Of a stretch of 64,000 nt of DNA, positions 39,493-42,085 are shown one piece after another. The position numbers and the translations under genes were made by a program. The stretch's first letter is position 1; each line of letters begins with the position of its first letter. A model generated the notes under the pieces. It had not been told where the DNA came from. It saw only the letters and a program-made list of their open reading frames with translations, and made no database searches. Source of the DNA: Cupriavidus oxalaticus (lineage in GTDB: Bacteria > Pseudomonadota > Gammaproteobacteria > Burkholderiales > Burkholderiaceae); assembly GCF_016894385.1 (NCBI RefSeq), contig NZ_CP069811.1, positions 906,501 through 970,500 of the forward strand. The letters run 5' to 3'.

Positions 39493-40401
39493 TCAGGCCG
39501 CCGGTGGTGTGTCGCCGATGGCGAACGACGACAGGTGCTCGATCGCCCGCACCAGCGCCGAATGGTCCCAGCCGCTTCCGCCAAGGCCGTGGCAGACATT
39601 GAACAGCTGCTGGCACGACGCCGTGTTCGGCAGGCCCACGCCCAGCTGGCGCGCGGTGGACAGCGCCAGTTCCAGGTCCTTCTGGTGCAAGGCGATGCGG
39701 AAGCCCGGATCGAAGGTCCGCTTGATCATGCGTTCGCCATGGACCTCAAGGATGCGCGAGCTGGCAAAGCCGCCCATCAGCGCCTCGCGCACGCGCGCGG
39801 GATCGGCGCCGGCGCGCGCGGCCAGCACCAGGGCCTCGCCGACTGCCTCGATGGTCAGGGCCACGATCACCTGGTTGGCCACCTTGGCCACCTGGCCCGC
39901 GCCGACTTCGCCCACGCGCACGATGTTCTTGCCCATCAGCTGCAGCAGCGGCAGCACGCGGTCGAACACTTCCTGCTTGCCGCCGGCCATGATCGACAGC
40001 GTGCCGGCCCTGGCGCCAACCTCGCCGCCGGACACCGGCGCATCGACATAGTCGACGCCCAGCGCCTCGATGCAGCGCGCAAACTCGCGCGTGGCGATCG
40101 GCGAGATCGAGCTCATGTCGATCACCGTGACCCCGCCCGGGGTCTCGGCAAGGCCGTCGGCGACGCCTTCCTTGCCGAACAGGACCTGCTCCACGTCGGG
40201 CGTGTCAGGCAGCATCAGGATGATGGTTTCCGACTGCCGCGCCAGATCCTCGGCGCTGCTGCAGGCCTGAACGCCCGCGTCCAGCAGGTCCTGTGGCACG
40301 CCGCTGCGGGTGTGGGCGAGCACGGTATGCCCGCCGTCGACGATATGCTGCGCCATGGGCTTGCCCATCACGCCAAGCCCGATAAAACCGATCTTGCTCA
40401 T
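39493..40401 (-). CDS. garR: 3-hydroxyisobutyrate dehydrogenase / tartronate semialdehyde reductase family protein
   Basis: A 302-residue beta-hydroxyacid dehydrogenase. The NAD(P) motif is GFIGLGVMGKPMAQHIVDGG at residues 5-24. The substrate motif is DAPVSGGEVGARAGTLSIM and the catalytic lysine lies in GAGQVAKVANQVIVAL. The wording is closest to 2-hydroxy-3-oxopropionate reductase (GarR/GlxR), which makes glycerate from tartronate semialdehyde, but 3-hydroxyisobutyrate is also possible. It is 62 bp downstream of the LexA-box gene on the same strand. Confidence 0.8.
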   Translation of the reverse strand: MSKIGFIGLGVMGKPMAQHIVDGGHTVLAHTRSGVPQDLLDAGVQACSSAEDLARQSETIILMLPDTPDVEQVLFGKEGVADGLAETPGGVTVIDMSSISPIATREFARCIEALGVDYVDAPVSGGEVGARAGTLSIMAGGKQEVFDRVLPLLQLMGKNIVRVGEVGAGQVAKVANQVIVALTIEAVGEALVLAARAGADPARVREALMGGFASSRILEVHGERMIKRTFDPGFRIALHQKDLELALSTARQLGVGLPNTASCQQLFNVCHGLGGSGWDHSALVRAIEHLSSFAIGDTPPAA

Positions 40402-40463
40402 GATAGTGTCCGGTGGTTGCGTGGAAGCGCCGCGCATGGGCGGACGCATAACTCTGATCATAG

Positions 40464-40766
40464 TCAGTTACGCGCCGGCAAGGCTGCATCCTTGGCCGGA
40501 TCGCCCGGACGCTGGCCCAGGATCTCGCGGATGCGGGCCAGGTACTGGTCGCCCACGGTCCGGTGCACGCGCGCTGCCTCTGCGGCGAACTGGCGCCGGC
40601 CAGGCGGGCGGATGCCGAGGCTGCGGCAGATCGTCGACAGGTAAGGCTTGCGCTCGCGGCCCAGGCGCAGCGCCACGGTCTGCAGCGCGGCATCGCCGAT
40701 GCGCCCGCGCAGCCAGGCCAGCACCTGGCGGTCGTAGTCGTTTTGCACGCGGATCAGGTGTTCCAT
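40464..40766 (-). CDS. Unrecognised 100-aa protein under predicted LexA control
   Basis: I do not recognise the family. The protein is basic and probably helical; residues 41-58 (PYLSTICRSLGIRPPGRR) resemble the turn of a helix-turn-helix. There is no signal peptide or membrane segment. GGAG lies seven bases before the ATG at 40766. Two LexA-type boxes sit 14-50 bases upstream of the start, so DNA damage should induce it. It could be a small checkpoint, toxin or DNA-binding protein. The downstream dehydrogenase and EamA genes lie on the same strand and might be read through. Confidence 0.7.
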   Translation of the reverse strand: MEHLIRVQNDYDRQVLAWLRGRIGDAALQTVALRLGRERKPYLSTICRSLGIRPPGRRQFAAEAARVHRTVGDQYLARIREILGQRPGDPAKDAALPARN

Positions 40767-40779
40767 GGCCAGACTCCTA

Positions 40780-40816
40780 CTGTTTATCCATACAGGTACT
40801 GTAAATATATACAGTA
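40780..40816 (-). promoter_or_regulatory. Two adjacent LexA (SOS) boxes
   Basis: Box 1 has core CTGT-TTATCCAT-ACAG at 40780-40795. Box 2, TACTGTAAATATATACAGTA (40797-40816), matches the enterobacterial LexA consensus at 19 of 20 positions. Both cores follow CTGT-N8-ACAG, with centres 19 bp apart, the arrangement of tightly repressed SOS genes. Nothing is transcribed from the other side, so the only plausible target is the 100-aa gene. Confidence 0.85.
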
Positions 40817-40888
40817 TCCTGGTGGAGGCAAGAAAAGTCTGCACGGTAATGACTACGGGCTCACATCTGCCGACCTACAGTCAACCCA

Positions 40889-42085
40889 TCATGTCCCCGA
40901 CCTCGGACCCAGGATCCGCTCGGTATCCTCGCCCAGACGGGGAGCAGGCTTATAGATCGATGCAGGCGTCCTGGAAAAAAGGGCTGTCGGGCGGGTTGTA
41001 ACCACGTCCCCTTCGGTAGGGTGCGTCATGGTCTGGAACAGGCTGGTGCTTTGCACCTGGGGATGGGTCTGGATGGTGTGGATGGAATACATTTCCGCGA
41101 CCGGGATATCCATCTCCCGGCACACATCCATCATCTCCCTGGTGGTGTACTGCGCCGTGATCTTGCGCAGTTCCGCATAGATGGCCTGGATGTTCTTGTT
41201 GCGCTCGATCCGGCTGCTGATGTTGAACTGGTCGATGAACTCGCCGCGGCCGAAGCGGTGGAAGAAGGCCTTCCAGTGCTGCTCCGTGTAGGGCAGCAGG
41301 GCGATGTACCCATCCTTGGTGGGCGAGGGCTTGCGGCCGCCCTTGAGCAGGCGCGCATAGCCGGCGTCGCCAATGGGCGGGTTAAAGCCGTGGCCGCCGA
41401 GGTGCTCCGTCATCGTGAAGGCGACCATCGTCTCGAACATCGGCACTTCGACGTACTGGCCTTCGCCGGTGCGGACCTTGTGGACGATCGCGCCAAGGAT
41501 GGCGTTGGCCGTGGCCAGGCCCGCGATCTTGTCGGCCAACAGGGTGGGCGGGTAGTCAGGGACGCCGCTTTCGTGCCCTATCAGATGGGCCAGGCCGCAG
41601 GCGCCCTGGATGATGTCGTCGAAAGCGGGCTGGCCGGCAAACGCGCCGCCCTCGCCAAAGCCGGTGGCGGCGCAGTAGACGATGCCCGGATTGATCTGCG
41701 CCACCGCCTCGTAGCCGAAGCCCAGCCGCTCGATCGCCTTGACGCGGATGTTGTGCACCAGCACGTCGCAGCGGCCGATCAGCTCTCGCAACCGCGCCTT
41801 GCCTTCTTCCGTCTTGAGATCGATGCACACCGAACTCTTGTTGCGGTTGATGTTCATGAAGGTGGAGCTCATGCCGGGCGTGCGGCTCACGCCGTTCGCG
41901 CGCATCAGGTCGCCCTCGGGCGGCTCCACCTTGATCACCTCGGCGCCATAGTCCGCCAGCACCTGGGTGGCGACAGGGCCCAGTACCACGGCGGTCAGAT
42001 CCAGCACGCGGATGCCGGCAAGAGGACCCCGGGGAGCGGTGGCGTCCACCTTTGGCTGGCCGGTCGTCGTGTCGCTTGCAGTCAT
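40889..42085 (-). CDS. CaiB/BaiF family III CoA-transferase
   Basis: A 398-residue CoA-transferase that shares the segments GIRVLDLTAVVLGP and PEGDLMRANGVS with the one at 21033-22247. The acyl-carrying aspartate is D185 in TLLADKIAGLATAN. It is divergent from the acyl-CoA dehydrogenase operon across 91 bp containing the inverted repeat TTGCT-TGAT-AGCAA, and the two units are probably co-regulated. The ATG at 42085 follows GCGAGGC; an ATG six codons upstream is possible. Confidence 0.84.
   Translation of the reverse strand: MTASDTTTGQPKVDATAPRGPLAGIRVLDLTAVVLGPVATQVLADYGAEVIKVEPPEGDLMRANGVSRTPGMSSTFMNINRNKSSVCIDLKTEEGKARLRELIGRCDVLVHNIRVKAIERLGFGYEAVAQINPGIVYCAATGFGEGGAFAGQPAFDDIIQGACGLAHLIGHESGVPDYPPTLLADKIAGLATANAILGAIVHKVRTGEGQYVEVPMFETMVAFTMTEHLGGHGFNPPIGDAGYARLLKGGRKPSPTKDGYIALLPYTEQHWKAFFHRFGRGEFIDQFNISSRIERNKNIQAIYAELRKITAQYTTREMMDVCREMDIPVAEMYSIHTIQTHPQVQSTSLFQTMTHPTEGDVVTTRPTALFSRTPASIYKPAPRLGEDTERILGPRSGT

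Follow-up and report, generated by a model that had tools for sequence, protein, structure and literature searches.

A gene for a small, strongly basic protein of Cupriavidus oxalaticus is very likely under the control of the SOS repressor LexA. The gene lies in the 64-kb stretch of DNA that was analysed here (the window) and is preceded by two adjacent LexA-type boxes, whose conservation among relatives strongly supports this control. With moderate confidence, we regard its product as a damage-induced, LexA-repressed helical protein of plasmid descent that acts on DNA or on replication. The original prediction was of an undescribed SOS-induced factor that belongs to no recognised family. Its first part, SOS control, is well supported by the conserved boxes and by the register of the promoter, the lack of a family no longer holds, and its novelty is doubtful.

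The gene is located on the minus strand at 40464..40766, with its ATG at 40766 and its stop at 40464, and it encodes a CppA-like protein of 100 amino acids (pI 11.2, charge about +8.7) whose homologues carry the label PF25860. Two exact CTGT-N8-ACAG cores, CTGTTTATCCATACAG at 40780-40795 and CTGTAAATATATACAG at 40799-40814, stand upstream of it and are separated by 3 bp. The box proximal to the start codon (box 2, TACTGTTTATCCATACAGGT) spans 40778..40797 and scores 15/20 against TACTGTATATATATACAGTA, and the distal box (box 1, TACTGTAAATATATACAGTA) spans 40797..40816 and scores 19/20. These are the only two exact matches in the window, and no other position reaches 14/20. When up to one mismatch to the core is allowed, the window has 9 matches, whereas shuffled sequence would be expected to have 15.0, and the 7 inexact ones are therefore meaningless. 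Both the closely spaced pair, with one box at 19 of 20 positions, and its uniqueness in the window are hence as first described. A sigma-70-type promoter-like site, TTGCCT-16-TATATT, is found on the minus strand at 40804..40831. Its -10 element is held within box 1, in a register similar to that seen in relatives, and box 2 would lie at or just after the expected start of transcription.

The boxes are placed between the ATG of this gene and the stop, at 40889, of an upstream gene which, from its sequence, we take to encode a CaiB-type transferase. Because that gene is on the same minus strand and ends at 40889, the boxes hardly serve another gene, in agreement with the earlier statement that the plus-strand side holds no gene start. 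A codon-position test was applied to close relatives, and the third position was the most variable in 7 of 8 comparisons. Against locus L003, for example, there are 7, 4 and 19 differences at codon positions 1, 2 and 3, and the eighth comparison, with L001, has just 3 differences. By this test, the 100-residue frame is a genuine coding gene. A longer frame of 126 amino acids that starts at a GTG is unlikely to be the true gene because the MEHL start is conserved and the length of the leader varies.

The genome that contains the window encodes both LexA and RecA, and both genes have matching boxes. All 35 exact CTGT-N8-ACAG sites of this genome were inspected, in 33 loci with 1.5-kb flanks. A reversed control pattern occurs 23 times, which means that many single exact sites must be due to chance. 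A/T-rich boxes precede lexA, recA, and the genes of a UvrA-type protein, a UvrD-type protein and a DEAD_2 helicase, all with Pfam support. An imuA-like gene behind a box was assigned by eye and has no Pfam match. The 19/20 box of the window gene is the best scoring of the 35 sites. The lexA, recA and UvrA-type promoters carry the same type of palindrome as the window gene. The two lexA boxes are 20 bp apart, compared with 19 bp for the boxes of the window gene. Unlike recA and the UvrA-type genes, the window gene belongs to no known repair family. Boxes of 16-17/20 at L141, L143 and L048 precede other genes. Five identical CTGTATGCGAAAACAG sites (L034, L039, L146, L148, L149) lie in repeated DNA of this genome and are unlikely to be SOS sites. 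They are perhaps near rRNA operons, a guess based on a spurious flanking ORF and masked stretches.

Conservation of the boxes before orthologues had been set beforehand as a test that could refute the prediction, and the boxes are kept. In a collection of genome contigs, both are exact in all 33 close-relative loci (30 of the 33 records are named Cupriavidus), with their starts 19 or 20 bp apart. Wider conservation was assessed in an even set of 200 Burkholderiaceae genomes, 88 of which were hit by a profile search at E <= 0.01. From these, 84 members were counted in 83 genomes (G195 contributes two), after setting aside the remote plasmid paralogue L133, the weak partial hit L134, the repeats L135-L138, and 7 weak profile-match rows (E 3e-4 to 0.0097). 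A box was scored as present at 15/20 or better within 130 bp of the corrected start, and a pair when two boxes were 16-21 bp apart, with the weaker box accepted in either place. A box is found in 81 of the 84 members and a pair in 77, of which 34 have a spacing of 19 bp and 28 a spacing of 18 bp. At least one exact site is present in 76 members and two in 42. Flanking DNA of the same loci and the same length, with promoters excluded, gave 0 boxes, 0 pairs and 15 exact sites (n=20,000). Shuffled upstream regions, which keep the A+T content and derive from a set that included a few misplaced regions, gave 5 boxes, 4 pairs and 36 exact sites (n=20,000). The members that lack a pair are L082, L097, L106, L109, L120, L127 and L130, and 6 of these 7 retain a box that scores 15/20 or more. 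Such a box is absent in 3 of the 84 members. L097 has no box within 130 bp and carries a degenerate pair farther upstream.

The promoter is conserved together with the boxes. A scan of 104 distinct promoters, in which the best register was picked, found the -35 TTG at one of two adjacent registers in 96 and TATATT as the best -10 inside box 1 in 77. Members of nine Burkholderiaceae genera retain this layout. With box 1 over the -10 element and box 2 at the expected transcription start, the arrangement would be suited to tight repression. In Cupriavidus sp. UYMMa02A (L027), both boxes are intact and the family frame is lost after about residue 70. The protein runs on to 200 amino acids, the result of a frameshift or a sequencing error.

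The homologue search that had been proposed for the 100-residue protein was run, and it recovered relatives labelled PF25860 as well as CppA proteins. Searching with the single protein gave 70 homologues, those with names coming from Cupriavidus, and one of them is 95% identical to the window protein. All 70 carry PF25860 as a precomputed label, the model itself being absent from the Pfam set that was searched. A search with a 43-member alignment gave 469 proteins, and the best 120 of these include members from Burkholderia, Paraburkholderia, Caballeronia and Trinickia. The remote paralogue L133, from a Ralstonia-like genome, is without a LexA box. Its matches include one protein named cryptic plasmid protein A by NCBI, its relatives also carry the PF25860 label, and tblastn with its sequence retrieved 177 plasmid records, 143 of them from Neisseria. 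The window protein itself matches the CppA of Deefgea (tblastn E 3e-6), and hhalign gave probabilities of 98.8 and 97.9 with two CppA proteins. The alignment with CppA proteins from Neisseria, Deefgea, Chromobacterium and Hydrogenophilus plasmids spans the whole length at about 30-38% identity. N9, D12, W18, L19, G24, P41, Y42, S44, L50 and P55 are the same in all 12 sequences compared, which come from both groups. Judged by these alignments, the window protein is homologous over its length to cryptic plasmid protein A, and this homology and the plasmid matches make the family a plasmid-type one. The window-type genes differ from cppA in having LexA boxes and in residing on second replicons; none of the three CppA genes examined from other families is preceded by a box. 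The literature searched gave no function for CppA. For gonococcal cppA, higher transcription in the absence of oxygen has been reported (PMC3032703).

Searches of Pfam, PHROGs and NCBIfam with the window protein and 43 relatives gave weak and scattered matches only, four CppA-type proteins had nothing significant in Pfam or NCBIfam, and a sequence search of the PDB had nothing significant for the window protein. A prophage origin was dropped, since the phage collections searched gave no credible match (one at E 0.2 in the first search and none in the other). One viral-contig record of 79 kb (L217), which could be a plasmid, encodes a CppA-like protein.

An AlphaFold2 model of the window protein (mean pLDDT 84.9, pTM 0.63) has helices at residues 10-23, 25-35, 43-50 and 57-84, and the helical segment 25-50 may form a DNA-binding helix-turn-helix. 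The only helix-turn-helix match of the protein in Pfam is a weak one, to HTH_30 over residues 57-92 (E 0.0049, below the cut-off). The protein could be imagined as an SOS-induced transcriptional regulator whose helix-turn-helix controls a further tier of damage genes. We consider this possible, though doubtful. The basic, helical model would suit it, as would the conserved segment KPYxSxVCRxLG that follows a short helix, and 6 of 43 members weakly match phrog_2440, annotated as a transcriptional regulator (best E 0.014). However, such weak matches are scattered over unrelated families, and the lowest E value among them (7.9e-4) belongs to a single member of the 43 and to phrog_15868, which is of no known function. 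The model also has no significant fold match among solved structures and viral models, which argues against a regulator and lends no support to a DNA-binding role for residues 25-50.

The C-terminus of some members provides a different hint. Peptides of the QxxLF type bind the sliding clamp. All 13 members of one Cupriavidus clade have a QxxLF C-terminus, in 12 of the 13 at the very end, and their QGSLF- and QASLF-like termini resemble those of clamp-binding proteins. The clade has support of 96/83, the motif requires one change on a 97-row tree (built without L027, L103, L127, L130, L131, L133, L134 and later identical rows), and the linkers before it range from 5 to 36 residues. Among 20,000 shuffled tails, 11 end in QxxLF and 153 contain the motif anywhere. 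The window protein and 84 of the 97 tree rows are without a QxxLF tail of the DnaN-binding type, so clamp binding cannot be the general function of the family. In 3 genomes from the genus of G126, the proteins (L169, L170, L171) begin with MxQGSLFK, again similar to clamp-binding proteins; a near relative has MQQEALSK. The leader between the LexA-like sites and the start is about 100 bp longer in these three. As hints, the QxxLF and MxQGSLFK peptides point to the replication machinery in some members, and not family-wide.

These tails bear on a second alternative, in which the protein takes the place of SulA as an SOS-induced division inhibitor and, by binding to a protein of the division machinery, holds back septation while repair proceeds. 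A small SOS gene behind the best-scoring of the 35 exact sites of its genome would fit this role, and the SulA family (PF03846) was found neither in the window protein nor elsewhere in the genome. The homology with CppA, some of which lies beside rep and par genes, suggests DNA maintenance instead, and both the high pI of the protein and the QxxLF tails of one clade speak against a division inhibitor. We hold this role to be unlikely.

The family resides mainly on secondary replicons. DnaA was searched in 34 genomes, which include all 20 that have <=4 contigs and a strong match. In 19 of these 20 few-contig genomes, the one studied here among them, the gene is located off the DnaA contig; the exception is G190 (L065), where the two share a contig. 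In the genus of G126, exactly one match is present in 64 of 65 genomes, and the remaining genome is 82% complete. The window protein matches 27 records of a plasmid collection, some of them megabase-sized, and 25 of the 27 are from Burkholderiaceae. The copies in 9 of these 25 records were examined. At least one exact LexA box precedes 8 of the 9; the exception is L168, which belongs to the remote CppA type and is without a box. In all, 14 plasmid neighbourhoods were examined, with flanks of 3.5 to 6 kb when the records were long enough. Genes for ParA, ParB or a replication initiator lie nearby on 5 of the 14 plasmids (Deefgea, two of P. fungorum, Caballeronia pSBC2-6 and Acinetobacter), and toxin-antitoxin genes are nearby on 5, one of which also has Par. 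Together, par, rep or toxin-antitoxin genes accompany 9 of the 14 copies and are missing around 5, counts to be read against the fact that plasmids commonly carry genes of these kinds. The simplest history suggested by these locations would begin with a gene of plasmids, over which LexA gained control in Burkholderiaceae and which then kept its place on the second chromosome.

A plasmid origin allows a third alternative. The gene might be a passive plasmid stability or mobilisation gene whose LexA promoter was merely inherited and which has no role in damage tolerance. On the gonococcal cryptic plasmid, CppA is found among mobilisation genes. On the Deefgea plasmid, it follows the replication gene. 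A passive passenger would hardly be expected to keep its promoter layout across nine genera and to remain single-copy in nearly every genome of one genus, and the excess of third-position changes suggests purifying selection on the protein. This alternative is therefore quite improbable. That the boxes are due to chance, or serve another gene, is barely credible: a 16-mer with 8 free positions does hold little information, as the 35 exact and 23 control sites of the genome illustrate, but conservation in 33 of 33 close relatives and the flank and shuffle controls contradict it, and no other likely gene begins there.

The reading that we favour, a LexA-repressed protein of plasmid descent acting on DNA or replication, can be put as follows. 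In undamaged cells, LexA dimers on the two adjacent boxes, over the -10 element and the transcription start, would keep the gene off, and RecA-triggered cleavage of LexA would turn it on. These two steps draw on sequence conservation and on the known mechanism of LexA. The product would be a CppA-like protein, small and basic, with a predicted structure made up entirely of helices. Plasmids carry members of this family, several times beside genes for replication, partition or toxin-antitoxin systems. In Burkholderiaceae, the family appears to have become established, under the control of LexA, on the second chromosome and some large plasmids. The molecular function of the window protein is hypothesized: in damaged cells, it would most likely target the DNA or the replication apparatus, for instance by contacting DNA with its helical segment 25-50 and causing replication to slow down or take another route. 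In the one Cupriavidus clade, the C-terminal QxxLF would anchor the protein on DnaN, the sliding clamp. The analysis shows the boxes and their conservation, the register of the promoter, the homology to CppA, the replicon on which the gene lies and the tail motif; induction, the binding of LexA to the boxes and of the protein to DNA or the clamp, and an effect on replication are steps that we infer. A more specific version is a long shot. It would make the CppA-type protein of the second chromosome a LexA-controlled damage checkpoint for replication, which would attach to DNA (and to the clamp in one clade) so as to hold or re-route replication, perhaps that of the secondary replicon in particular. 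The gene offers a handle on what CppA-type plasmid proteins do and on whether multi-chromosome bacteria tie their damage responses to secondary replicons.

The claim that the factor is undescribed is doubtful in the light of earlier work. Sanchez-Alberola et al. (2012; PMC3323433) analysed beta-proteobacteria, among them R. eutropha, R. metallidurans, C. taiwanensis, R. pickettii and Burkholderia, and predicted LexA regulation for two hypothetical genes. One of the two, hypA, is described there as having no homologues outside multi-chromosome beta-proteobacteria. Its predicted LexA regulation and its distribution match those of the window gene. The words "double" and "two LexA" are absent from the text of that paper. 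By distribution, hypA is the likely but tentative identity of the window gene. An assigned function for the window gene was not found in the literature searched, most subscription journals and supplements lying outside its scope. The genome contains a second LexA-boxed hypothetical gene, of 127 amino acids, at positions 1501-1915 of L048 (G000:C1 about 2767306-2767720), with a box of 16/20 and no Pfam match. It is present in 12 of 100 family genomes and in 2 of 25 genera (Cupriavidus and one other), and it is a poorer fit to hypA.

Two metabolic genes had been suggested to be read through from the SOS promoter. The gene directly downstream, at 39493..40401 on the minus strand, presumably encodes a dehydrogenase of the 3-hydroxyisobutyrate type, a name given from its sequence. 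Its start was chosen at 40401 in an ORF that begins at 40461. If the start is at 40401, the gap to the 100-residue gene is 62 bp, and no terminator-like site was found between the two, so read-through is possible. It is not a conserved feature. The dehydrogenase gene adjoins in just 7 of the 33 close-relative loci, by which a conserved operon is rejected, and the downstream metabolic genes are bystanders.
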